Shown: positions 33,846 to 63,264 of the stretch, one piece after another | Numbering within the stretch: the stretch's first letter is position 1 | Layout of the letters: each line of letters begins with the position of its first letter | Assembly: GCA_009768925.2 (NCBI GenBank) | Contig: VHIT02000027.1 | Location: forward strand, 124,001 to 188,000 | Length of the DNA: 64,000 bases | From: Cryptosporidium bovis | Lineage: Eukaryota > Apicomplexa > Conoidasida > Eucoccidiorida > Cryptosporidiidae | Reading direction: 5' to 3' | Made by a program: the position numbers and the translations under genes | The notes under the pieces: model-generated | Told to the model about the DNA's origin: nothing | The model's database searches: none | What the model saw: only the letters and a program-made list of their open reading frames with translations

Positions 33846-36800
33846 TTACTTAATTTCATTTATCGTTGAAGAAAGCCTCTTAAATGTTTCTTCTGTGGGA
33901 GGTAGATTGTTTTCAACGCAAAATACGTGCAATTTCTTAAGTAAATTAGAAGTTTGTGAAATAGATTGAAACTGTTTCTCAACACCTCTGATAGAAAGAA
34001 GCCCCAAAACACTCATTCTCATGTGCTTTCCCATTGCCCTCCCAATTCTATGTCTGTTTAATGCAAATATAGTAGGTATATTTAATTCTTGAGCTTGTAA
34101 CAGAATATGAATTACATGATGCCTCAGACTTCCTTCAACCCCATCACCTTCAATATCGGGAGCTACAATAAGTGCCTTCAATTTTCTGTGTCTCAAGCAT
34201 CTCATTGCCTCCCTAACACCAACAGTGAAGACTCTCCCAGGAAAATTTTTTGAGAAGCTCGAGACAGTTCCCGTTTCATTACCATTGGCATTAATACCAC
34301 CCAATTCATCTGGATTGTTATTATTGTTTGATGGATCCGGGTTGCCCTCGTTATTGTCACTTCTGTTTAACTTTAAATCAATTTGCATACCACCGCCACT
34401 CTTGCAACCAACGACAGTCGACATCCACCTTACTCTATCATCAATTGCTCTCAATGTATTAAGTAGAACAGAAACGCTGTGATCCAAGGAAGCAGTTAAT
34501 ATTTGATTAACATAATTTTGCGGTGTTGAAACCGTTCTATGTCCAACTTTATGGGCAACAGCTAAGCGAATATTTTTGTGCACAAATGCTCCATTTTCTG
34601 GTTCGGACCAATAGGCACATTCAGATGGATCAAACGACTTGGAGACTGCTTCTACAGCAATATCATCAATTGCAACCATATATTTAGTCCCATCTTTTTC
34701 ACTGTCCTCAATTCCAACATAACTAACTTTTTTAATATCAACAGTGTCCAAATAATGATAAAGTACTCTTAACCAATGAAGTCTTCCAGAATTATTCCTT
34801 AAGAATGACGAAAATCTTGCGCATGTTACTACATCAATATTCTGTTTCTTATTATCATTTGTGGAGACGCCTACAGAGCCGGTATTTTCCCCATTGTCAT
34901 TTCCAGAGGCATTAGAACAATGGTTTTTGCTGTTTCTATTGTTAAAACCAGTTCTACCACCGGTTTTACTCATTGCCTTTGCCCATAATGCAGCAATGCT
35001 GGACGGAGTGAGTTCATTTTGTGAATTATCATTATTTGAAGTATCATTGTTTCTTACATCAGGGTTAGTATTACCGACTAAATAGTTATTGTTGGTTGCA
35101 GAAATACCACCATTGACCCCTAACATGCCATTGCCATGATGGTTAATACTGTAGATGTTACTATTGTTAGTATTACCGTAAATTCCAATCCCTCTGTATC
35201 CAGAAATAGAACCCTTCCTACCCATTTCATTGCCAGTCGCAGAGACGAAAAACTGACCATTGTTATCTTCCATTCCCTTCTTATTGTTTGTACCAGAACC
35301 ACTAGTACAAGCAAATTGATTATGGCCGTTAAAATCACCGTGAAATTTAGTGTTATTTATTCCACCTGCGCTGGAAACAAATACAGTGTTATTTGAACTG
35401 GATTTCCTTCTATAAGATAAATTGCTGTTATTTATCCCAGATGAAGTTGCACCGGTATTGTGTCCTTGAATTGGGCAATTTGGAGGACATGTTTTTCTTC
35501 CATAGTGTTGCTGAAAGGAACCAATATTGTTTCCATTGAATAGCCCATTATTCACGTTCACTCCTGCTACTCCTCCACTTCCATTTCTACCTGATTTGCA
35601 GTAATGACGACCAGTAGAGTTTAAATCAGATCTAAGGATGTTCTCGTTAAATGGTTTCTGAATGTAGCCATTTGTGGCACCAAGCATTCTAAGAGAATTA
35701 GGCACTCCTTGATTTATTTCAAAGCCACTTGAACCAGAGCCACCACTTCGTCTTTTGGCTTGCTTCATTTGTTTAGTGCTGTTCGGATAACCATTGTTCA
35801 TCAATCCCATATTCGTACCCATAACCCCATTACTATTTACATTTTTGCTCTGCTGTCCAAAATACTTTTGTCTAATTTGCTGTTTATTAAAGATCATATT
35901 ATTGTTATAAAGCACTTCACCCCCAAAGTCGTCAGTAAACTCGTATCTATCGAAGATGGAACATTGTTGTGACTTCCAATCCTTATACCCAACAGAACCC
36001 ATATTCACCATCATATCTTGACTGCAGTTAAATGAACAATTTTTGTGTCTCTGATCCCAATAAAGTCTGGATTCATTGCCAAAATCCGTTTCTTCATTCA
36101 CTCCATGGCCATTGTTACCGTTAGAATCTAGAAGATATTGAGTTCCTCCGCTGTTCATCAATCTGCTGAATTGACAGTCTGCGTTATCTCTCGTATTATT
36201 AACCTCAAACTGTGTATCGTCAGTGTTAACAGTTGAAGGAACGCTACAACCGCCATCAAGAGAGATAGAATCGTATTTAGAAATAAAGCCTCCATTCCCA
36301 ACAAACATTCCACCCTGACATACACTTCCAGCTACCATCCCTCCAGGACCAATATTCCCAACTAAGTTACCTTTAAGATGTTTAGTATCTACTATATTAC
36401 CCATTTTTGGATAACAATTACCACTAGGAACCTTAACTCCATCAGAACCACCTATGTCGCCGTTCCCTCTTAGTGCCATTCTTTTTAATTTCATATCTAA
36501 ATTATGCGTGCCATTGGTACTGGAACCACTTCCTCCACTTTTGGTACTTTGTTTGTCATTTACAAAATTCTCACCACACAGCATACTAAGAATCTGGGAT
36601 TGAGTGAGATTTCCGGAAATAAAGTGATCTATTGATGGATAAATGTCCCCATCTCCAATATTACGCGAATCAAAAGACCCATTATTATTGCCACTACAAT
36701 TACTTTGCGACTTCGTTTTGACTGAATTATCACCGTCCTCAATTACATTACTAAATTCGTACATCTTCGTTTCGTTACTTGCGCCATCTAGATCTAAAGT

Positions 36801-38366
36801 ACAATTGTTTTTTGAACCATCATTCTTCCCATTTTCACGAACAGAGTTGGGAATGCACATGTTTTTCGGATTTAAAGAAATGTCATGTGTCTTCAAATTG
36901 ACATCTCTTATTGCCACACCCGAAACAGTGACGTCTGAAGAGATGTTTGAATTATGCGAAGAGTTGTTTTTTATTACGTCATTACTACTTCCGATGTGAC
37001 CACTAGACATTTTCCTTTGAATGCAATTAGGAGAGGAAGAAGATGGAGTGTTCGTTAACCCCATTCTATGATTGCTATCACAACCATCTAATCCATCCAG
37101 GAAGGCTTTAGAATCCCTTCTGAATCCAAATCCAACCGAAGAATTCGGAACGATCTGCAGGGGACCAGAATGAACGGCACTTGAATTGTTATAATTGCTG
37201 TTACTGCTATTTGTGTGTCGACCACCCCCCTTATTGCCAATAATAGAATGTACATAGGTATCATTATTGTTCCTGGAACTGTTTATTACATTACCACTAC
37301 CGCCGCAAATTCCCATTTTCATCATCTGTTCATCAATAGGTAATGAGCTGTACCTACCTATACTGTTTTTACTATTATTTTTCGTATTGTCAAAGTTGGA
37401 AACAAATTGCCCAATATTCCCATTATTAATATGAAAACCACGCATTGCTGATGTTCTACTAGATTTAGGAGCACTTCCTCCTTCACTCTGAGATATAGCA
37501 CCATTAAATTGTACAACGCTATTCCCATCACCACCACTATCTAAATCAACGACACAACTACCTTCATCTAGCACGAAGCTACCATTCGAAAGTCTATTAT
37601 TGCTATTGACATCAGTTAAAGGTACACCTATATTTGAACTAAGATAAGAATCCCTCATAGTTCCAATTAAATTCACGCTTGTACTTGCCCCAGAATTAGG
37701 TTCACCTCTATTTACATCCACATAATTACTATCATTGTAGGAACACATGTTATTTGATTCTGCAGATCCGCGCTTATTAATGGAATTATAACACCTATCG
37801 ATGTCCAGAAAAGGTCCATCTAAACGTCCAAGATTTATAGAATTCACATCGTAATTTGAGTTATAGCCCATTCCATGGACTTCGTCAAAACTTCCTTTGG
37901 TCACTTCAATACCACTTACTATATTACTACTGTTTCTCTCAGCAAAAGAACCATCTCTACTCGAAATTCCAGCATCCCTTAAACCCTTATAGCCATTCAA
38001 CTGACCCTCAATTGCATTCACTCCCAAGCTATTATTTCTCATGTCACTCAATATTGAATCACTTCTTGAGTGGCCTATGTGTCGATGATGTTGTTGGTAA
38101 TTGTGGTTATAATCGCTATTGTATAACTGTCTGTTACCCTTAATATTAGTGGCTGTATTTGTTGTACTGCCACTTCCAAATTCGTTGTGGATATTTCTGT
38201 TTCTACAATTATTATCTATGTAATTACCACTGTCATCGTTACCATTATTGTTACTATTACCGTTATCATCACTCCCAAATTGTATATAGGAGATGTTATT
38301 GTTCCTAGGAAAACCAAATAACTCACCAGCAAGTATGTCAAAGTTATTTTCCAATAAATTTTCCAT
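33846..38366 (-). CDS. Asn/Gly-rich protein with SBP2-like L7Ae RNA-binding domain
   Basis: The 1506-residue protein has ~1150 disordered residues rich in Asn, Gly and Ser. An ordered C-terminal part starts near 1175 (RFSSFLRNNSGRLHWLRVLYHYLD). The L7Ae-type domain is at about 1375-1475. VGVREAMRCLRHRKLKALIVAPDIE, HHVIHILLQAQELNIPTIFALNRHRIGRAMGK and MSVLGLLSIRGVEKQFQ align with the SBP2/SECISBP2L family (LVLGLREVLKHLKLKK, CVIISPN, NIPFVFALNRKALGR, VSVVGIFSYDG). That family binds kink-turn/SECIS RNA in selenoprotein synthesis. Whether this organism makes selenoproteins is doubtful, so another kink-turn RNA target is possible. Confidence 0.8.
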   Translation of the reverse strand: MENLLENNFDILAGELFGFPRNNNISYIQFGSDDNGNSNNNGNDDSGNYIDNNCRNRNIHNEFGSGSTTNTATNIKGNRQLYNSDYNHNYQQHHRHIGHSRSDSILSDMRNNSLGVNAIEGQLNGYKGLRDAGISSRDGSFAERNSSNIVSGIEVTKGSFDEVHGMGYNSNYDVNSINLGRLDGPFLDIDRCYNSINKRGSAESNNMCSYNDSNYVDVNRGEPNSGASTSVNLIGTMRDSYLSSNIGVPLTDVNSNNRLSNGSFVLDEGSCVVDLDSGGDGNSVVQFNGAISQSEGGSAPKSSRTSAMRGFHINNGNIGQFVSNFDNTKNNSKNSIGRYSSLPIDEQMMKMGICGGSGNVINSSRNNNDTYVHSIIGNKGGGRHTNSSNSNYNNSSAVHSGPLQIVPNSSVGFGFRRDSKAFLDGLDGCDSNHRMGLTNTPSSSSPNCIQRKMSSGHIGSSNDVIKNNSSHNSNISSDVTVSGVAIRDVNLKTHDISLNPKNMCIPNSVRENGKNDGSKNNCTLDLDGASNETKMYEFSNVIEDGDNSVKTKSQSNCSGNNNGSFDSRNIGDGDIYPSIDHFISGNLTQSQILSMLCGENFVNDKQSTKSGGSGSSTNGTHNLDMKLKRMALRGNGDIGGSDGVKVPSGNCYPKMGNIVDTKHLKGNLVGNIGPGGMVAGSVCQGGMFVGNGGFISKYDSISLDGGCSVPSTVNTDDTQFEVNNTRDNADCQFSRLMNSGGTQYLLDSNGNNGHGVNEETDFGNESRLYWDQRHKNCSFNCSQDMMVNMGSVGYKDWKSQQCSIFDRYEFTDDFGGEVLYNNNMIFNKQQIRQKYFGQQSKNVNSNGVMGTNMGLMNNGYPNSTKQMKQAKRRSGGSGSSGFEINQGVPNSLRMLGATNGYIQKPFNENILRSDLNSTGRHYCKSGRNGSGGVAGVNVNNGLFNGNNIGSFQQHYGRKTCPPNCPIQGHNTGATSSGINNSNLSYRRKSSSNNTVFVSSAGGINNTKFHGDFNGHNQFACTSGSGTNNKKGMEDNNGQFFVSATGNEMGRKGSISGYRGIGIYGNTNNSNIYSINHHGNGMLGVNGGISATNNNYLVGNTNPDVRNNDTSNNDNSQNELTPSSIAALWAKAMSKTGGRTGFNNRNSKNHCSNASGNDNGENTGSVGVSTNDNKKQNIDVVTCARFSSFLRNNSGRLHWLRVLYHYLDTVDIKKVSYVGIEDSEKDGTKYMVAIDDIAVEAVSKSFDPSECAYWSEPENGAFVHKNIRLAVAHKVGHRTVSTPQNYVNQILTASLDHSVSVLLNTLRAIDDRVRWMSTVVGCKSGGGMQIDLKLNRSDNNEGNPDPSNNNNNPDELGGINANGNETGTVSSFSKNFPGRVFTVGVREAMRCLRHRKLKALIVAPDIEGDGVEGSLRHHVIHILLQAQELNIPTIFALNRHRIGRAMGKHMRMSVLGLLSIRGVEKQFQSISQTSNLLKKLHVFCVENNLPPTEETFKRLSSTINEIK

Positions 38367-45181: not shown

Positions 45182-48100
45182 TTAACTCGTGTATGATGGA
45201 ATGACATGCATAATTGCTGGAATATCAAATGATTCTGGCAAGTAATGTTTTGAATCACTTAATTCTTCATCTTTTGAAGTATCTGGCTGTTCCTCCACTA
45301 CTGATATTTGTGATATTGTGAGTGATGTAGCTACAGCTAGACGTAAATCTGTTCTGTAAATTACTTGAATTTCTTTTTCACTTGATATTTGGTATATTGA
45401 CGCACCATTTGTAAGCATGTTTGCAGCAGACGCACCACAAGCAATTAGTCTAAATTGATTACTTACATATGCAAGACTTACAACAATTTTTTTACCACTT
45501 GAACATATGCAATTTCCTGTAAATTTACCTGTTGCAACAATTTTACCTGGCACATTATTTAATGTGAAACTACTTCCATCAACAGCTAATTGTAATTGTG
45601 TTTTACCTGCTCTCCCTGAAAAGATAACATCATTACCACATTCGAATTCAACACTTAAACTTTCACCTGGTGAGAATGGCGCACCTGATGATATTACTAC
45701 ATTCTTTGATTTCACCGTACCCATAGGATATATGTTATTGGCTGATAATGTCGGTGTATATAATGTTCTCTTTAAGTTATATATTGCTGCAGCTGAAGTA
45801 TGAGATGCATCAACATTTAATTGACCAAATACTCTTGCTGAGTTAAAGTGGTGAGTATATGGAATCTTGCATAATAATGTTGATTTTCCAACACTATAAC
45901 TATGGAAGTATACTTGGAGTTCACCGTCTAACACATAAAATGTCACATAGTATTTCTGACCCTGATCAAACTCTGACTCTTCCGGCACTTGAGACGAACA
46001 ACTTGAAAATGATCCTGCATTACCATTATTTATTGAATTGAACAATGTAATGTACTTTCTAGCAACGACCAATGTATATACTATAGCACCATTGAATGTA
46101 AGAACAAATGATTGTAAAAATCCAGGGAAGTTTGAGAATACCTTAGATACTTCTTCTGAAGTGTAAGTTGGGAAGTATGACTTTATTGAAATAGCGAAAT
46201 TGTTTGGGTGCAATGAAGTTGAACAAAGTTCATCAATAGAAGAACCTGGATAATACACGTTATAGCTTGAATACTGCGACTCAGATGGAGTTGATTTATC
46301 GCATCTTTGGTAGCACAAAACCTTTGTTGCTTTTGATGTATTAGACCCAAAAGCATTATTATCATATGTTTTACATAATCCTGGATTGGTACTGGTTACT
46401 GGAATGAACTCTGATACAAATCCATCTACGTGTGTCGATGTGATATGATTGAAATGTTCATTTTCTCTCGTTAATAATAAATTCATCCATGAACTATTTA
46501 GTCTATAACCAATTGATTGACCAGAGTAGAATACTCTAAAATCGTTATTTGAAATACCAGTGGTGAATTCCCTCGTTGAGCTCTCTGCATTTGTTCTAAC
46601 ATCAATTTGAACTTTTTGATTCCATAGTGTATTCTTTTTTATAAACACGAATTCTGCTATCACAGAACCGTCCTCCTTTTTGAAGTAAAGGCTAAATGTA
46701 TTTGTATTGAAATAGTAGAAGTAAAATATCAAGACAACTGACTGATATACTGGTTTATTTCCAGGCATATAAACAGTTGGTGATGAACAAACACCAAAAA
46801 CGGACAATGTACAACTTTTATCACCATCTTTTTCATATTTGTATCTGTTTTTAATCGGACCCCAAACCGAATATTTAGTGTTCAAACTGTAATCATATGG
46901 ACTTTTCACAAATAATATTGGGACAATGCTTCTAATTGGTTCAAAGTTAACATAATTTACATGGTAAGTTGTTTCACCCCAATCAGATATTTGTGGAATA
47001 ATATGTCTTCTCAGAAAAATTAGATTGCCAGAACCATATGGAGCCTCTATGAATGCGTTGACCTCTCCATTATAAAATCCGAGACCAATTTTATATTTTG
47101 ATCCTTCTTCTAAATCGACACTTGGTGGTACTTTTGCACCAAAATGACCAAGGTATCTAGTTGTGTCCTTCGGATTATGTATAGAAAAACCAAGCTGAGT
47201 TCTGGTTATAAAGAATTGATAAATATCACGGTCATTACTAGCTCTTAAACTGAAAATTTGAATAATATCTTCAACTGGTATACCAATATTTAGGACCGAT
47301 TCAAAACTACCCATTGGTTTTTCTACAATACCAGTAATAATAATTGAGTAACCATGTGGTAATTTAGTGTCCGGGAGATTAATTACTGATGAAACCTGAC
47401 TACAGTTCACTACCTGTCTCTTACCGGCATCACATGGGCTGTAGAATCTTAATTCGTCATCAATAATATTGCTAGATGAGTATGGCTGAGAAGTATAATC
47501 CAAAACATCACTAGAGCCACCATAAACTGGATAGTTTGTTACTTGAACTGTATTTCCAACCATGTTAGAATGGAAAACATATGTTAGCTTCTTGTTTAAA
47601 CCTCTTGAACTTAATGATCCCAATAAATAACCACATGCTGAAGCATAGACACGACTTGAATCGGAAGAGATTAAAAGAGTCAAACCGTCAAATAAGATTC
47701 TCTCTAAACATGTTGGTGGTACAATTGAATACACAACAACATCTGGTTCATTTAAATTTCTCATACCAATCTTTCCAGTTGAGATCATTGAAAAAACTAA
47801 TTGATCAGAATTGTTTTCTGACGATTTTATGTAAATTGAAAATGGGAAGGTAACCTTTTCTGATTTAATTAGTACATAAGTTTCATCAACAAAACCAACG
47901 CCGTCCATATGTACAGCTTTCATTGAATTGCAATTACCATTTGTAGTCAAATAACAGTTTGATGTTTGTTGTGATGATCTAGAGTTAGCACTACCTCCAC
48001 TGATTGATTCATAACCATTTTCTGGATAATCGTTTGTTAAAGCAAAGCTACTTAAACTAGAATGGTGTTGATTCATAAATGGCCTAATATTTTTAATTCC

Positions 48101-49693
48101 AATTGAACCAATTGAAACTTCGCAATACAACTTTTTCACACCATTAACTAATCCAGATACACCTAATTTGTTTCTATTGGATAAACCAATAAATGTCTTT
48201 AAATCACCATCAGAAAGCACACTTGATCCTGACAAGTAAATAGAACAAGAATCTGTGACTATACCTTCTTCAGAGAATACAAGCATTGATACTGAATTTA
48301 CTGAAAAGAACACTGATACTCTCATAAAGTTAAGGTCACCCATTAAAATTGCTCTAAATACATCTTTTTGTGCACTAGAACTGAATCTATTAATGATATC
48401 ACCACCTGAACCTGTTGTATTTATCTCAACTTGCTGTCCCGGTGCTAGTGGATTGCTTAATCTTAACTCTGTTCCAGTACATGATGTTTCACCAACTTTA
48501 CACTTATATTTGCCTATAGAAGATCCATATAGTGTCGGATTAATATGACTAATTGTTTGTGTTGCTGTGAACCAGATCGTAGAGTCAATTCTTGAAATTT
48601 GGGCGCCTTGAATATCGAATGCTGCGTAACATGTATCATGAACACAGAATAAGAGGTGACCACCACTGAACATGAACGATAGGTCTCTAATACAATCACC
48701 AGTTGTTTTGCTATTAGCATCGCTTATATTGATATTAATAACTTCATTTCTGTTTTTGTGTATGTTATTAACTGTCAATTTGTAGTTAAGGCCTCCAGTA
48801 TTTCTGACTGTTATCTTAAGTTTAATGTTCGAAGGATTCATATACGCAGAAAATGAGAATGTTACACCTGAAATTCCACTCAATTGGCCTTGACTGAAAG
48901 CAAATCTTATTCCATCTTCAAAAACGTCACCACCAGGTTGGACAACAGTTGTTCCTTTCCTGATACTGAACGGCCCAGCATATATTTGACTTGAAGGATT
49001 ATTAGGAACTTCGTAGGCGACATAACTACTCGGTATTGACAGACTCATTGACTGCTCAAAGTTGATGTAATTATCAACTGGACCAGTTATTGGTGCAATA
49101 TGACTTAATACCTTATCGCTAATCTTCAAGCTACCTACCTCGTAGTATTTACCATCTTTGTGCTTAAAAAGCATTGTAAGGTATCCAGATCTATAGAACA
49201 AATATATATCGAAGTCATCTCCTTGTGAGTTTCTGAAGTTGCTTGGTTCTCTTAATAATGTGATACCAGCGTATTTACGAGAGGGTGAAACAAAATCACT
49301 ACTTTCGACATTCACAAGAGTGAAACCAACAGTTTCAGTACCAAAATGAATATCAATATACGGAGCTCTATTATCGTCGAATATTCTTAAAACTAATCTT
49401 GTTTGGTCAATTGGAATGCCCATGTATTTTGTTATGAATGGATTAATTCTATTTGGTATTTTACCTCTGATTCTAAGGGTATATCCTGCGGAAATCTTAT
49501 TTGAACATAAACCAATGAGTGATCCACCCCTACATGACGTAGTTTGGCATGAATAACCCAAACTACAACTTTCTTTTGGGGAAGATGCCGAGATTGGTAT
49601 TTCACTTGTTGAGTCAACAAAATTAGTACTAATAAAGCTGCTGACACATAGTGAAATAGTCACTACCACGATGTACTTTAAGAAGTTATTCAT
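45182..49693 (-). CDS. Large secreted repeat protein, 1503 aa
   Basis: The protein starts at the ATG at 49693 with a signal peptide (MNNFLKYIVVVTISLCVSSF). There is no later membrane helix or obvious GPI signal, so it is probably secreted. The body is beta-rich with few charged low-complexity tracts, unlike most neighbours. Diverged modules recur. One begins with a Cys and a LxxGY/Q(x)IxIxG line: near 60 (SAGYTLRIRGKI), 420 (APGQQVEIN), 790 (PHGYSIIITGIV) and 1400 (SPGESLSVEFE). It is often followed by an N/MGIP segment and a GF(T/S)xxN strand. The modules may be lectin- or laminin-G-like sandwiches. I do not know the family. Surface, oocyst-wall or secretory-organelle roles are all possible. 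Confidence 0.7.
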   Translation of the reverse strand: MNNFLKYIVVVTISLCVSSFISTNFVDSTSEIPISASSPKESCSLGYSCQTTSCRGGSLIGLCSNKISAGYTLRIRGKIPNRINPFITKYMGIPIDQTRLVLRIFDDNRAPYIDIHFGTETVGFTLVNVESSDFVSPSRKYAGITLLREPSNFRNSQGDDFDIYLFYRSGYLTMLFKHKDGKYYEVGSLKISDKVLSHIAPITGPVDNYINFEQSMSLSIPSSYVAYEVPNNPSSQIYAGPFSIRKGTTVVQPGGDVFEDGIRFAFSQGQLSGISGVTFSFSAYMNPSNIKLKITVRNTGGLNYKLTVNNIHKNRNEVININISDANSKTTGDCIRDLSFMFSGGHLLFCVHDTCYAAFDIQGAQISRIDSTIWFTATQTISHINPTLYGSSIGKYKCKVGETSCTGTELRLSNPLAPGQQVEINTTGSGGDIINRFSSSAQKDVFRAILMGDLNFMRVSVFFSVNSVSMLVFSEEGIVTDSCSIYLSGSSVLSDGDLKTFIGLSNRNKLGVSGLVNGVKKLYCEVSIGSIGIKNIRPFMNQHHSSLSSFALTNDYPENGYESISGGSANSRSSQQTSNCYLTTNGNCNSMKAVHMDGVGFVDETYVLIKSEKVTFPFSIYIKSSENNSDQLVFSMISTGKIGMRNLNEPDVVVYSIVPPTCLERILFDGLTLLISSDSSRVYASACGYLLGSLSSRGLNKKLTYVFHSNMVGNTVQVTNYPVYGGSSDVLDYTSQPYSSSNIIDDELRFYSPCDAGKRQVVNCSQVSSVINLPDTKLPHGYSIIITGIVEKPMGSFESVLNIGIPVEDIIQIFSLRASNDRDIYQFFITRTQLGFSIHNPKDTTRYLGHFGAKVPPSVDLEEGSKYKIGLGFYNGEVNAFIEAPYGSGNLIFLRRHIIPQISDWGETTYHVNYVNFEPIRSIVPILFVKSPYDYSLNTKYSVWGPIKNRYKYEKDGDKSCTLSVFGVCSSPTVYMPGNKPVYQSVVLIFYFYYFNTNTFSLYFKKEDGSVIAEFVFIKKNTLWNQKVQIDVRTNAESSTREFTTGISNNDFRVFYSGQSIGYRLNSSWMNLLLTRENEHFNHITSTHVDGFVSEFIPVTSTNPGLCKTYDNNAFGSNTSKATKVLCYQRCDKSTPSESQYSSYNVYYPGSSIDELCSTSLHPNNFAISIKSYFPTYTSEEVSKVFSNFPGFLQSFVLTFNGAIVYTLVVARKYITLFNSINNGNAGSFSSCSSQVPEESEFDQGQKYYVTFYVLDGELQVYFHSYSVGKSTLLCKIPYTHHFNSARVFGQLNVDASHTSAAAIYNLKRTLYTPTLSANNIYPMGTVKSKNVVISSGAPFSPGESLSVEFECGNDVIFSGRAGKTQLQLAVDGSSFTLNNVPGKIVATGKFTGNCICSSGKKIVVSLAYVSNQFRLIACGASAANMLTNGASIYQISSEKEIQVIYRTDLRLAVATSLTISQISVVEEQPDTSKDEELSDSKHYLPESFDIPAIMHVIPSYTS

Positions 49694-49905
49694 CTTGGAA
49701 TATTTCAACGGAGAGAACTAACAGACCCTGTTAAACTTTGCTGTTTTTTCAAATGAAGCACTTGCCTATGTTCCTCTCAGTTTTTTTTTCCAAAAATCTT
49801 GGTCTCTCAATTATTTTTTTTTCTACGCAGATTTTCTGCGACTAACTGAAGAATAATCACACCAAACTTATGTCACATTTACAATCAGATTATGCACCCC
49901 TGATA

Positions 49906-57935: not shown

Positions 57936-58560
57936 AGTGGTTCTATTACTAACATTGGTAGTTACGTATATAAATGCATAGTGCACTTTCTTTACCTTTG
58001 CGAGTCTCGTATTTTGAATTCAATTGTTCAATTATGTATTTTGGTTACTTGAACAATTAATTTTTGAGATATTATCTGATTGTTAAATAAATATAGAGAA
58101 ATCAATGTTACTTGCCTTTGCTATATTAGTTGAACTCTATAAAATTTAGGTATATATCAAGATTAGAAATAGGGAGAAAGGAATTAACTTAATCATTTTA
58201 ATTTGTGATACGCATAGCAGAGTATTTTTATTAAATAATGTACATATAACTTAAATTTGCATATTTAGATAGTAACTGCCCACAGGATTTTTCGTTAATT
58301 AGGTATATAAATTGCGGGAAAGTTTCTGTGTGAATAAATTAAGTAATAAAACAAATAAAATAGAATCAATGTCCAATAATGAAATTGCGGTGTATCTGTG
58401 GGTTTGAAGAAAATAGTAAACTATATTCAAGTATTGTTTGAAAAAATAATAGAGGGATTTAAAATACCGAGGGTTTAGATAAGCTAAATTATTGATAGGT
58501 TCTCTGTTTTTATCGTTTCTAGGTCATTTAATTTCAAATTTTTTATTCCATTTAGTCATC
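57936..58560. other. Intergenic region upstream of the RNA ligase-like gene
   Basis: AT-rich. No E2F-like box is seen. An in-frame hydrophobic stretch at 58492-58560 starts with TTG, not ATG, and is not taken as coding. Confidence 0.5.
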
Positions 58561-61500
58561 ATGTCTAACAATAGTGATGCTCTGCCAATAAAATTATTAA
58601 AGTACATTACAACTAACAATAGTATTTTTCACGTAGTTTCAAAGGATGTATCCGAAATTACTGATTGTTTAATTGATTATATATGGGACATAGGTGTTAA
58701 AGGTAGAAGAGACGATGAGGACAAACTGTTTGAGGAAAACAGAGAACTGAGAAACATAATTAGAAGAGGGTTTTCACTAGGAATAAAGATTTCCCCATTG
58801 AAGAAAAAGGAGTATGAAGGTATTAGATGGTTTGAATACGACGCTGAATATTTAAATGTATGGATATTGAGAAGGGGTTTCCAAAAATTTAACGACTTGC
58901 CTTATTTACCTCAAGAAAGGGAGAGTCAATTAAAATATCTATTAAAAGGAGACTGTAATAACCTGGGTTTTTTAGCAACTGAGAAGCTTGATGGTGAAAA
59001 TTCACAAATTTCGTACTTTGAACCAACTGATCAGTGGGTTATAGGATCAAAGAACGTCACACTGCTTTGTAGGAATAGACAAGAGTTAAATAGTAAAATT
59101 TATAGTGAAAAGAGATACATATCAGCAAAAAACATAGGTTGTGAATGGTTTAGGTTGTTGGAGGGTTTAATTTCCGAAACGGGTGAAAATTACGGAATTG
59201 AATTAAATAAAACTAAAAAACTATTGGTAGATAATACTCTTTTGGGGGAATTAATATGCGTACATGATAGACAACATGTAATTAATTATCCATATAAAGA
59301 TGCAAAAATAGAGTTTATTGGAATAGTTTCAAAGAATACTCAGGATCAGGTTTGTTATTCTCCAAGTTTATTACATGAACTCCTTCCTTTGTATTTCAGG
59401 AAATATATAGTTGATTTTATAAAACTTCCTTCTCAAAAAGTTTTAGTGGATTACCTAAAGAATCATATTGAAGTAAACGAAGTTATTAAAAGGGGAGTAT
59501 TTGACTCTTCTTTTTATCAAAAGTTTAATTTTACTAGTTTAATTGATATAGATGACTATTTGAGCTTATTACAGTCTGCTGTATATTTATACGAAGAGGA
59601 GATAGAGGGGATAGTGTTATACATAATTAGAGGGGACGAGAATAATATGGTTGTGTTGGATGCATTTAAAGTGAAGACGATAATTTATTCAAATTTAAGA
59701 AGTTTGAGAGAGAAATTGAAACATATATTAACTGTAGATTTTCAAATACTATTGAAATGTGATGAAAGAAACTTAATTAACACACCTGATTTAGAAGACT
59801 CTCTCAAGACTGAGACATTAAAACAATATTGGAGGCCAATATATAATTTCTTATTTTTAAGGCTTCCAGTCTCCGCAGAAATGTTTATTAGAAATTTAAA
59901 TAAAACAAATGCGAAAATACTTTCTTTCTATAAAAAGAAAGAATATGAGGCTATTAGAGAAAAGTTAACAATTTACTTAATTAATTTGGTTCAAAAATAC
60001 AAGATTTTTTTCCAAGACTCCATTATTTATCTACTTTCGTTTATTGTCTTTATTCATTTAAATTCTAAAAGTAAATTGGACTTTACAGAAATAGGAAGAA
60101 ATTTTTTTGATCATTATATTGATTTTGTTTTTCAGGTCAAACAACAAAAATCAATTTCACCAGTAGTTCCCACTAATGAATCTATGCCTGTATCAACTTT
60201 CAGAGATATACCAAAAAATACAACAATTGAGTTAACACTGCCTCCATTTATTTTAACATGGGATGAGATTAAAAGATATATATCAAAAGACTTGTCAATT
60301 TCAGAGGACTTTATTGTTCTTTGTGAGGATCAATGCTTTCTAACAGGAAATGGAGACACTGAAAACATTAAATCTGGCGAGAAATTCAACTCAAATATAA
60401 CTAAAGACAGTAATAGTATTTATGTCAATGTTAGACATAATAAGAATATTAACGATTTATCAGGCGGAGATCTTTCAGCTTTAAACTACAAGTTGAGTTA
60501 TTTAATTGTAAATGAAGAAAAAGTTGAAAATTCTCATATTGAGTATGTTAGATCAAGCATCAGCGTTAAATTTAACAATTTTAATCGTGTTTACAACATA
60601 ATAAAGGACTATTTAGATGGGATAAATATGAAAATAGATCATGAAAGAGAGAAAAAAGCGACACAAGATGAGATAAGTACACATAATAAAAAAGTTATTT
60701 TTAGATTACAAAACATTTGGAAATATTTACCGTGGGAAGAAGACAACAAATATACTTTATCTTCATTGCCAAAGGGGTATGTACTGAATGAAAAAGACTT
60801 TGAACATTTGGTTTATAGTCTAGTTGCATTGGGTGATATAAACTATGTTTTAAAGGCATTTTATTGTTATGGTATAGAAGAAAATTTGCTTAGTATAAGA
60901 AATTCATTTTTGTCTGAGGAAAATGAAAACAATAATAAATTGGAATGCACAGTAGTTTTGTTATCGGGACTTCCTGGATCTGGAAAAAGCTCTATACTTA
61001 GGAGTTACCTAAGAAAAAGATCATTAGAGGAGGATTGTTGTTACTGTGAATCATTTTTAACAACAGGGGAGTTTGAAAATGAAATAAGTACTAACGAAGA
61101 AATGGTCTATTCAATAATAGTAAATTCTGACAAAAAAGAAAACAGTGAATTTGATATTATACTTTATGTTTCAAGTGACGGATGTGTAAATAGAGTTTTT
61201 AAGGGGGATAAATGGGATCATGACTCAATTAATTTTATGAACTCAATAAATTCATTAAATAAAAATGGTTACACGATTAATAATGATGGGGAGGAAAGCT
61301 TTAACATATATGGTCATAAAAAATGGATGAAAGAATTGAAAATAGGAAATAATTCAATGAAATTTATAATTAATTACGTGATTAAACAGTGTGTATATCT
61401 AACAATGGGAGTTAAAAATGAGAATGATAAAAAAACATTTAAAACAGGAATTATAAATAAATTATTGGATAATATTGATTATGCTCCAAATTGGTTAAGG

Positions 61501-63264
61501 GAGTTATTTAATATTTACCAAGGCAACACAAATTTAAGAATGCTTTTATTGGTTGATAAAAACAATACTACTAAAAATATCGTCGAGTTGAACAATAATT
61601 TTGGAATCCTATTTAACATCGATTCTAGAGTATTGTACAGAGTTATTTTACTCACAACTCAGACATTCACAAATATTTTAGGTAATGATATTGTTAAAGA
61701 AAAGGATTGGAACTATGTATGGAGCAAAGAGGACGTTTTGAGGTGCATTATTAGACTCTCAAAGAGATCAAATCACAGTACACTTGAAGGTCTTACTACT
61801 AGATCTTTGATAGTATTGCTTAGTTTCTTGAGATTATACTCAACTCCTATTAGGGTAGCTGATATTTATAAAAACAAATCAAGTTCTAGAAGCTCAAAAG
61901 TACGCCTTTCACAAGAACTTGTTGACAAATTGGAAATAGATGGATTTATTTCATTAGACAATGATAAAGATCTGTCTTTTACGAACTTGGATTCAGATAC
62001 TCAAAAGTTATTAGATAATATTTATATTACAATTAAAAAAACAATAACTAACATAAAACCATTTGATACAGAGTCTAAATACGAGGGTTTGAATGAATTG
62101 ATTACTCAAGTAAGTGAACTTGTTTCTAGGATTAAATATAATGAGAATGGTGGTTTAGAGGAAATTGTAAACAAGTTCTCTGAAAATTTGTCAAAAATTG
62201 TAAAAGAAACGCAGCCAAAAGTTCATCCTTCTGAAAGTCACATTAATTGTTTAGGAAATGGAAATCTAAATCTAGAAATAAATAAATCCGGCTACTTTTC
62301 ACAGAATCAAATAAGCGACTATGTATCTGAAGTTAGAAGCAAATTTAATCTTACTGCAGTTACATTTGAAGACAACAAGGAAAGTGAACATAGAATTGTA
62401 GAGTTATGGAATGAGAATAAAATTATATTCTCAGATCTAATTAACGAAATAATTAATACTGTGGATCACTCTATTGAACACAAAAATGGCAGTAAAATAG
62501 AATTACCAGAAATTTCAAAGGCCAAGAAACACATCTCCTGCCACTTCTTTTCTAAAAAGAACCTCAATTTTAATAACCGAAAGGATGAGAATGCAAATTC
62601 TGACAATAAAGACTCCGATGATTCAACTTCTGATCTCAGTGTTGTGTTTGACAAGGAAAAAATATCTGATCTTGCCGTTGCTATATCAAAACCATATTTA
62701 GGAAAAACATATTCTTTCCAGGGGACATATTTAGTTTACATACATCCCTGGAAATTGGCCTTTTTAACAGTAAATTCCAAGTCTAAACTACTCCAAATAA
62801 TTTCAAATGAGAAGAAGTATGATTTAAGGGTAAAAAGAGATAATACAAATGAGCCAAAGAGTGACAACAAACGAAAAAACAAGAATATTAAATTAACCAA
62901 TAAAAGTGAATCAAAGTTTATACAATCTAGTTATTTGGACTTCAAATCAGCTTTTCCACTGCCTATTAGACAAGATGGAAATTTACATATAACTCTATTT
63001 TCCCTTGTATTTAAACCGGTCATTTCCAATATTGGAATTAGCATTCTAAAAGAAAATTTCACAGATGAAAATTCAATTAAACACGAAAATGGAATATATG
63101 AAGTCAATGCAAGGATAAATGAAGAGCCCTTGAGAGAACTCCTTATCTCAGAAGAGAAACCAAAAGAGAACTACGTTGTTTCAAGTGATAAGCAAATAAA
63201 AATTCTTGTCAAAAATATTTGGAATAGGGAATTAAGCATCACGGGAATACTAAATTACATGTAA
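58561..63264 (+). CDS. Multidomain RNA ligase-kinase-like protein, 1567 aa
   Basis: A covalent nucleotidyltransferase fold is visible in the first 400 residues: motif I EKLDGE with K142, an upstream RRGFQKFND like the RG..KFFN of T4 Rnl1/tRNA ligases, GSKN at 162-165 (motif III), GEL at 229-231 (IIIa), EGIV at 349-352 (IV) and KVK at 370-372 (V). A P-loop GLPGSGKSS at 803-811 opens a likely kinase domain. Near the C-terminus is one HxT (H1476, HITLF), reminiscent of 2H cyclic phosphodiesterases, but I find no second HxT. This order (ligase, kinase, HxT) parallels fungal Trl1 and plant tRNA ligases, which heal and seal cleaved RNA. It is much longer than those (about 830-1100 residues). Role inferred: tRNA or other RNA repair. 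A capping enzyme is less likely because of the P-loop and RG..KF motif. Confidence 0.7.
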   Translation: MSNNSDALPIKLLKYITTNNSIFHVVSKDVSEITDCLIDYIWDIGVKGRRDDEDKLFEENRELRNIIRRGFSLGIKISPLKKKEYEGIRWFEYDAEYLNVWILRRGFQKFNDLPYLPQERESQLKYLLKGDCNNLGFLATEKLDGENSQISYFEPTDQWVIGSKNVTLLCRNRQELNSKIYSEKRYISAKNIGCEWFRLLEGLISETGENYGIELNKTKKLLVDNTLLGELICVHDRQHVINYPYKDAKIEFIGIVSKNTQDQVCYSPSLLHELLPLYFRKYIVDFIKLPSQKVLVDYLKNHIEVNEVIKRGVFDSSFYQKFNFTSLIDIDDYLSLLQSAVYLYEEEIEGIVLYIIRGDENNMVVLDAFKVKTIIYSNLRSLREKLKHILTVDFQILLKCDERNLINTPDLEDSLKTETLKQYWRPIYNFLFLRLPVSAEMFIRNLNKTNAKILSFYKKKEYEAIREKLTIYLINLVQKYKIFFQDSIIYLLSFIVFIHLNSKSKLDFTEIGRNFFDHYIDFVFQVKQQKSISPVVPTNESMPVSTFRDIPKNTTIELTLPPFILTWDEIKRYISKDLSISEDFIVLCEDQCFLTGNGDTENIKSGEKFNSNITKDSNSIYVNVRHNKNINDLSGGDLSALNYKLSYLIVNEEKVENSHIEYVRSSISVKFNNFNRVYNIIKDYLDGINMKIDHEREKKATQDEISTHNKKVIFRLQNIWKYLPWEEDNKYTLSSLPKGYVLNEKDFEHLVYSLVALGDINYVLKAFYCYGIEENLLSIRNSFLSEENENNNKLECTVVLLSGLPGSGKSSILRSYLRKRSLEEDCCYCESFLTTGEFENEISTNEEMVYSIIVNSDKKENSEFDIILYVSSDGCVNRVFKGDKWDHDSINFMNSINSLNKNGYTINNDGEESFNIYGHKKWMKELKIGNNSMKFIINYVIKQCVYLTMGVKNENDKKTFKTGIINKLLDNIDYAPNWLRELFNIYQGNTNLRMLLLVDKNNTTKNIVELNNNFGILFNIDSRVLYRVILLTTQTFTNILGNDIVKEKDWNYVWSKEDVLRCIIRLSKRSNHSTLEGLTTRSLIVLLSFLRLYSTPIRVADIYKNKSSSRSSKVRLSQELVDKLEIDGFISLDNDKDLSFTNLDSDTQKLLDNIYITIKKTITNIKPFDTESKYEGLNELITQVSELVSRIKYNENGGLEEIVNKFSENLSKIVKETQPKVHPSESHINCLGNGNLNLEINKSGYFSQNQISDYVSEVRSKFNLTAVTFEDNKESEHRIVELWNENKIIFSDLINEIINTVDHSIEHKNGSKIELPEISKAKKHISCHFFSKKNLNFNNRKDENANSDNKDSDDSTSDLSVVFDKEKISDLAVAISKPYLGKTYSFQGTYLVYIHPWKLAFLTVNSKSKLLQIISNEKKYDLRVKRDNTNEPKSDNKRKNKNIKLTNKSESKFIQSSYLDFKSAFPLPIRQDGNLHITLFSLVFKPVISNIGISILKENFTDENSIKHENGIYEVNARINEEPLRELLISEEKPKENYVVSSDKQIKILVKNIWNRELSITGILNYM

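Follow-up and report, generated by a model that had tools for sequence, protein, structure and literature searches.

A giant open reading frame with a Trl1-like ligase domain

The DNA analysed here, a stretch of 64,000 nucleotides of the Cryptosporidium bovis genome (hereafter the window; G000:C14:124001-188000 in a genome of 9.06 Mb and 43 contigs), carries on its forward strand a gene for a protein of 1567 amino acids (58561..63264), which we propose to be a divergent tripartite tRNA ligase of the Trl1 type. The open reading frame (ORF) is single and uninterrupted from the ATG at 58561 to the stop codon ending at 63264, and all features of the protein given below lie on the same (+) strand. 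On mechanical grounds, an in-frame TTG at 58492 could serve as an alternative start, the frame being open for the 69 nucleotides upstream (58492-58560); however, M1 at 58561 is common to all ten proteins that we aligned, and the relatives begin at ATG, not at the equivalent of the TTG.

Two protein database searches yielded nine relatives of 1528-1575 amino acids, each of them full length and ~31-95% identical to the window protein. Eight are listed under Cryptosporidium names (xiaoi, ryanae, felis, parvum, chipmunk genotype I, meleagridis, ubiquitum and canis) and the ninth is nameless; none bears the name of a function, the eight being entered as hypothetical or uncharacterised, and the closest, with 94-95% identity, is a Cryptosporidium xiaoi protein labelled hypothetical. 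Both searches were word-based, with shared 5-residue words required; run with E limits of 1 and 10, they returned 7 of 7,993 and 9 of 7,981 scored candidates. No relative from outside Cryptosporidium appeared in either search (~8,000 candidates scored each), and as far as these reach, the protein is lineage-specific, as an earlier sequence-only reading of the window had suggested. Searches of PDB sequences with phmmer and with profiles, using the protein or an 8-row alignment as query, found no ligase, and a PHROGs search with the protein gave no match. The nine relatives and the window protein form the alignment from which all conservation counts out of ten were taken. Invariant in it are K142, D144, G145, K164, E230, E349, G350, K370, K372, G803, G808, K809, H1476 and T1478, while the G of GEL (229-231) is not. 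The motifs listed in the sequence-only reading (K142-LDGE, G162SK, GEL 229-231, E349GIV, K370VK, a P-loop at 803 and H1476IT) all lie where it had placed them.

Residues ~1-395 (58561..59745) form a putative adenylyltransferase (ligase) domain. The Pfam model RNA_ligase matches at E up to 1 in seven of eight proteins scanned together (best 1.3e-5), none of the matches listed for these eight being above the cut-off; RNA_lig_T4_1 matches at E up to 1 in 4/10, over the cut-off in Cryptosporidium felis (28.4 bits) and Cryptosporidium ubiquitum (30.0 bits) and below it in the window's own protein. For scale, a yeast-type Trl1 (P0014) reaches just 22.0 bits on RNA_ligase. A profile of the ten proteins (residues 1-420) was then compared by hhalign with a fungal Trl1 profile of 120 rows, made from the best 120 of 2,582 fungal hits after a length filter had dropped P0099 (461 amino acids) and one Chaetomium piece had been added. 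The two align collinearly over 190 columns (101-353 against 78-270) with E 5.4e-4 and a score of 36.8. The control scores were 15.7 for reversed Trl1, 19.7 for T4 Rnl1 (26 columns), 17.2 for T4 DNA ligase and, in a separate run, 18.9 for reversed DNA ligase. T4 Rnl1 and T4 DNA ligase were each compared as one sequence, and a single Rnl1 sequence makes for a less sensitive test than a profile of 120 Trl1 rows. In a column-shuffle test, where, as in all our shuffle tests against Trl1, every third Trl1 row was used, the real score was 37.5, the best of 200 shuffles scored 25.8 and 0/200 reached the real value; hhalign's own probability for the alignment is 30%. The structure models are of low confidence overall, and with the N-half model the two top Foldseek rows are one Trl1 ligase entry and the top three VIA rows are Trl1. 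Together, these results support homology of the ligase domain to fungal Trl1, with motifs I-V in order, and uphold the ligase identity that the sequence-only reading had put forward.

Nine residues carry the comparison to the level of the active site. R105, K109, E230, H239, E349, K370, K372, R380 and R383 are paired by hhalign with R82, K86, E184, H193, E266, K284, K286, R295 and R298 of yeast (Saccharomyces cerevisiae) Trl1, with the same letter in 9/9, and these residues are found in 120/120 fungal rows and in 10/10 of the proteins aligned here. The first two belong to R105-G-x-x-K-F110 (58873..58890), the counterpart of Trl1 'RGYDKFF', in which R, G, K and F are all 10/10. E230 belongs to motif III, with H239 nine residues on (59248..59277), and E349-G350 to motif IV (59605..59610; 10/10). 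Three comparisons were made, of which two pair motif V, K370-x-K372 (59668..59676), and R380-x-x-R383 (59698..59709; both arginines 10/10) and one stops short of them. Spacings in yeast and here, respectively, are 9 and 9 between the E of motif III and the H, 18 and 21 for E266-K284, 2 and 2 within motif V, 9 and 8 for K286-R295 and 3 and 3 between the arginines; the remaining gaps, R66-K86 (20 vs 40), K135-E184 (49 vs 66) and H193-E266 (73 vs 110), are longer here. Three further sites, also 10/10, were matched by motif or by eye: K142-L-D-G (motif I, 58984..58995), the proposed lysine-AMP site corresponding to yeast K114; G162-S-K164 (59044..59052), proposed to match the 'CSK' of Trl1 (yeast K135, Chaetomium thermophilum K169); and R69-G70 (58765..58770), paired by eye with the Trl1 'ARG' (yeast R66 and Chaetomium R99, an ATP contact). 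K142 and K164 are 22 residues apart, against 21 in yeast Trl1.

The Chaetomium Trl1 structure, as described in PMC6592678, gives these residues a possible function: Lys148 takes the AMP, Arg99 and Lys169 contact ATP, and Arg334, Arg337 and His227 hold a sulfate that is taken as a stand-in for the RNA phosphate, Arg337 and His227 being reported essential. Since K148 is by numbering yeast K114, the sulfate ligands correspond to yeast R295, R298 and H193 and thus to R380, R383 and H239 here, which supports a match of the Arg-Arg-His phosphate pocket of Trl1 in the Cryptosporidium protein. The same paper writes Trl1 motif I as Kx(D/H/N)G; thus, KxDG is no departure from Trl1, and this reservation of the sequence-only reading falls away.

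Proposed kinase and phosphodiesterase domains and an additional domain

Between the ligase and kinase domains lies an extra alpha/beta domain, residues ~545-680 (60193..60600), one of the regions that the N-half model predicts best (predicted local distance difference test, pLDDT, 75-84 at residues 551-590). Structure comparison gave weak DapB-like rows for it, and by eye it has a ubiquitin-like look. To our knowledge, no characterised tRNA ligase has an extra domain at this place.

A polynucleotide 5'-kinase domain with insertions is proposed for residues ~790-1165 (60928..62055). Its P-loop, GLPGSGKS, occupies residues 803-810 (60967..60990; G803, G808 and K809 10/10, S810 9/10), and hhalign aligns this region with T4 polynucleotide kinase (PNK) over 40 columns (E 1.5e-5, 80% probability, score 44.0 vs 18.0 for the reversed control), a match whose weight is limited by the P-loop being common to many unrelated proteins. 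T4 PNK is also VIA's top row, obtained with a low-confidence model. Against the Trl1 kinase, hhalign aligns the P-loop alone, over 17 columns, with a score reached by 1/200 shuffles. D999-x-N1001 (61555..61563; 10/10) may match D85/N87 of T4 PNK and the 'VDRNN' of Trl1 (yeast D454/N456); it is set against the former in a second, non-significant hhalign alignment (score 14.5) and is not paired with Trl1. R1069 (61765..61767; 10/10), the proposed lid arginine (yeast R511), is paired in a second full-length hhalign alignment with E 0.064. An alignment of the lid with that of Trl1, striking by eye, was rejected as not significant, its score being reached by 44/200 and 41/200 shuffles.

Residues ~1300-1567 (62458..63261) are proposed to form a cyclic phosphodiesterase (CPD) domain of the 2H type, with two Hx[ST] motifs. 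The sequence-only reading had seen only one HxT; near the C-terminus this is literally true, but a partner for it is present as H1324-I-S (62530..62538), a site that reads HxT (HVT/HIT) in 7/10 proteins and HxS in 3/10 and lies outside the hhalign alignment. The letters HxT also occur at 1072, within the kinase lid. Across the whole alignment, just two columns, 1324 and 1476, have H in 10/10 with S or T two residues on in 10/10. The second motif, H1476-I-T (62986..62994; 10/10), is followed by xPxxSN as in Trl1, and around it hhalign aligns the protein with Trl1 CPD over 47 columns (E 0.0016), pairing H1476, T1478, S1489 and N1490 with H777, T779, S792 and N793. In the shuffle comparison with the Trl1 CPD, which covers 25 columns, 1/200 shuffles reach the score.

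The Pfam models tRNA_lig_kinase (PF08303) and tRNA_lig_CPD (PF08302) fail to match any of the ten proteins at E up to 1, while both match the yeast-type control P0014. We take PF08303 and PF08302 as marks of the fungal branch and not of the Trl1 type, PF08302 being named for fungi. We therefore do not file the protein as a fungal Trl1; if our interpretation is right, it would be a divergent protein of the same type, in which the proposed kinase and CPD identities draw mainly on motifs. How readily such motifs arise was gauged with 20,000 shuffles of the protein, using patterns written post hoc with the sequence already known: KxDG alone occurred in 5,646 and a loose ligase ladder in 18, and neither the ladder joined to an H-or-R and an RxxR at Trl1-like spacing nor ligase, P-loop and two 2H-type motifs in order occurred in any.

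A probable tRNA splicing pathway and the one tRNA intron found

We examined the genome for the remainder of a tRNA splicing pathway by six-frame searches, which weak matches escape. Tpt1 (PF01885) is encoded (E 3.0e-44, model positions 2-177 of 177), as are two tRNA-splicing endonuclease domains (E 5.4e-21 and 1.2e-16). Tpt1 is reported to occur also without a fungal-type ligase, so its presence is supportive only. RtcB (PF01139), the enzyme that the sequence-only reading had suggested looking for, has no match in the genome at E up to 10, in a search that was positive in 9/14 control genomes, and it is absent among the Pfam matches of the 1567-residue protein; a search for archease, positive in 6/14 control genomes, gave nothing at E up to 1. 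No other RNA_ligase match was found in the genome, a weak result because this search missed the 1567-residue gene itself. A role in mRNA splicing, also raised by the sequence-only reading, drew no support, in a search for an IRE1-type RNase domain that came up empty in the genome and in its controls alike. Over the Pfam cut-off lie two RNA kinase matches of the Clp1/Grc3 type (G000:C15:179926-180369 and G000:C22:33740-34216) and are a possible second source of 5'-OH kinase activity; a census paper puts Clp1 in just 25.9% of Apicomplexa (PMC6777427).

The tRNA model finds 45 tRNA genes in the genome, and ARAGORN with introns allowed makes 48 gene calls in the 45 loci, of which three repeat a neighbouring call; tRNA genes with long introns may escape the first of these scans. 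An intron is present in one tRNA only, the sole tRNA-Tyr(GUA) found (L045; G000:C37:104089-104171). It is 11 nucleotides long and lies one nucleotide 3' of the anticodon, the canonical 37/38 position, which ARAGORN in its own count prints as 36-37. Folded alone, the anticodon arm of the pre-tRNA-Tyr has a stem of 5 bp and a further helix of 4 bp in which the intron takes part, with the 3' splice site marked by a bulge of 3 nucleotides, a stem-bulge-helix shape of the kind recognised by the splicing endonuclease. Without constraint, the whole pre-tRNA favours a non-tRNA fold at -32.5 kcal/mol over the -30.5 kcal/mol obtained when the anticodon stem is enforced. Taken together, the endonuclease domains, Tpt1, the failure to find RtcB or archease and the intron in tRNA-Tyr point to a complete heal-and-seal pathway for which the 1567-residue protein is the sole candidate ligase found, in keeping with the role in tRNA splicing raised by the sequence-only reading.

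Pfam matches were obtained in 10 of the 16 neighbouring ORFs scanned, and all are to families usual in eukaryotes (protein kinases, a GCN5-like acetyltransferase with bromodomain, lipin, ARPC4, PheRS, an L7Ae-type domain, a diphthamide-synthesis protein, a DEAD-box helicase and an RPAP1-like protein). In a 1506-residue protein at 33846-38366 (-) of the window, residues 1381-1455 match a ribosomal domain of the L7Ae/L30e/Gadd45 type (E 2e-7), and the rest of its length has no Pfam match at E 0.001; a 1508-residue ORF at 45182-49708 (-), listed with a TTG start, has no Pfam match at E 0.001.

Proposed function, alternatives and known systems

We consider it probable, at roughly 80%, that the 1567-residue protein serves Cryptosporidium as its tRNA-splicing ligase and is a divergent heal-and-seal enzyme of the Trl1 type. 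The splicing endonuclease would excise the 11-nucleotide intron from pre-tRNA-Tyr, leaving a 5' half with a 2',3'-cyclic phosphate and a 3' half with a 5'-OH. The C-terminal 2H domain (H1324, H1476) would then open the cyclic phosphate to a 3'-OH/2'-phosphate, and the central P-loop kinase would phosphorylate the 5'-OH. The N-terminal domain would adenylylate itself on K142, hand the AMP to the 5'-phosphate and seal the break, reading the RNA phosphate through R380, R383 and H239, after which Tpt1 would strip the 2'-phosphate from the junction. Such a heal-and-seal route is described for yeast (PMC6592678, PMC4090602). We infer these chemical steps and the substrate, and likewise any role of the 545-680 domain and of the kinase insertions. 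Weighing against this interpretation, K142, K164 and R69 are not paired with Trl1 by hhalign, K142 facing a gap, K164 having E126 opposite and R69 lying outside the alignment, which slightly lowers our confidence; on the same side stands the weak homology of the kinase and CPD domains to those of Trl1.

The combination of ligase, kinase and CPD is also that of RNA repair systems, and the protein might accordingly be a heal-and-seal enzyme serving mainly stress or toxin-type breaks, the tRNA-Tyr exons being joined by another, unrecognised ligase. The Clp1/Grc3-type matches lend this some room, the kinase not having to be dedicated to splicing; however, neither RtcB nor another RNA_ligase match (in the search of weak sensitivity noted above) was found that could stand in for it in tRNA splicing, and the sole tRNA-Tyr gene found contains the intron. 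A splicing role also accords with the phosphate pocket and with Tpt1. We regard a main role in repair as improbable. Slightly less probable again is that a T4 Rnl1-like ligase became fused to unrelated P-loop and 2H domains, an independent assembly convergent on Trl1. The weak kinase and CPD homology would suit such an origin, motif I is KxDG as in T4 Rnl1 (K99-E-D-G), and Pfam RNA_lig_T4_1 covers both the Rnl1 and Trl1 kinds. Yet the ligase profile, with T4 Rnl1 as a single-sequence query, scores at the control level, against 190 aligned columns with Trl1, and H239 and R380/R383 match Trl1 and are not seen in T4 Rnl1, where NRIVLAY has Ile at the His position (in a by-eye alignment) and no RxxR follows in the 40 residues from motif V. 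That the protein is a DNA ligase, an mRNA capping enzyme or a scaffold without catalysis is very unlikely, for although nucleotidyltransferase motifs are shared in general, the comparison made, with one T4 DNA ligase sequence, scored at control level, and the catalytic residues tested, needless for a scaffold, are invariant in ten proteins down to ~31% identity with the window protein.

If the protein is the tRNA-splicing ligase, it would supply the ligase that the parasite's tRNA splicing has lacked and would assign a function, with residues open to testing, to a protein whose eight entries with Cryptosporidium names call it hypothetical or uncharacterised. New here are the Trl1-collinear ligase domain, the phosphate-pocket match, the HxS partner at 1324, the genome pathway and the tRNA-Tyr intron; among the literature matches listed, no described Cryptosporidium or apicomplexan tRNA ligase was recognised from titles and the starts of abstracts. 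The wider proposal, which we find evenly balanced, is that Cryptosporidium lacks RtcB and that a single tRNA-Tyr, its one essential substrate, has to be joined by a giant ligase of the Trl1 type, specific to the genus and with an extra domain between ligase and kinase, on which the parasite relies entirely. We infer that this whole dependence would be carried by one tRNA gene. If malaria parasites (Plasmodium) carry RtcB, the tRNA ligase would have been swapped within Apicomplexa. The protein would also add to fungi, plants and kinetoplastids another group in which the 5'-phosphate route of Trl1 can be set against the 3'-phosphate route of RtcB. Few drugs are available against Cryptosporidium, and the parasite would differ from its mammalian host in this essential step. 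Because Metazoa are described as using RtcB for tRNA splicing (PMC8668186), the ligase and Tpt1 would be candidate selective targets; against fungi, Tpt1 has been described as an attractive target (PMC6333775).

Among known systems, RtcB, the 3'-phosphate tRNA ligase, shares the presumed job of joining tRNA halves but is an unrelated enzyme. Phage T4 Rnl1 and polynucleotide kinase resemble the protein in the nucleotidyltransferase motifs, KxDG and the kinase P-loop region, whereas ligase and kinase are there separate proteins and the ligase profile match does not rise above controls. The plant tRNA ligase, at ~1100 amino acids, is larger than fungal Trl1. By description, plant RLG1/AtRNL has the same tripartite order (PMC10598085). 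Trypanosoma brucei Trl1, a close precedent, is likewise described as a protist tripartite 5'-phosphate ligase, in a genome with one intron-containing tRNA-Tyr, whose maturation is its essential task according to that paper and to the title of the study that it cites (Lopes et al. 2016); unlike the Cryptosporidium genome, in which none was detected, T. brucei also has RtcB (PMC10598085). Fungal Trl1 (S. cerevisiae, Candida glabrata, Chaetomium thermophilum) differs in having 827 amino acids vs 1567 (1.9-fold, within the 1.5-2 times that the sequence-only reading had estimated), KxNG (N in 120/120 fungal rows) vs KxDG, no counterpart of the extra alpha/beta domain at 545-680, 50 vs 190 residues from the P-loop lysine to DxN and 104 vs 152 between the 2H motifs, and in being matched by the fungal Pfam kinase and CPD models that are silent here. 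It is alike in the proposed order ligase-kinase-CPD, as the sequence-only reading had recognised, in the collinear ligase profile with nine identical paired residues, in the P-loop and, by motif, the DxN, and in two 2H motifs with xPxxSN after the second.

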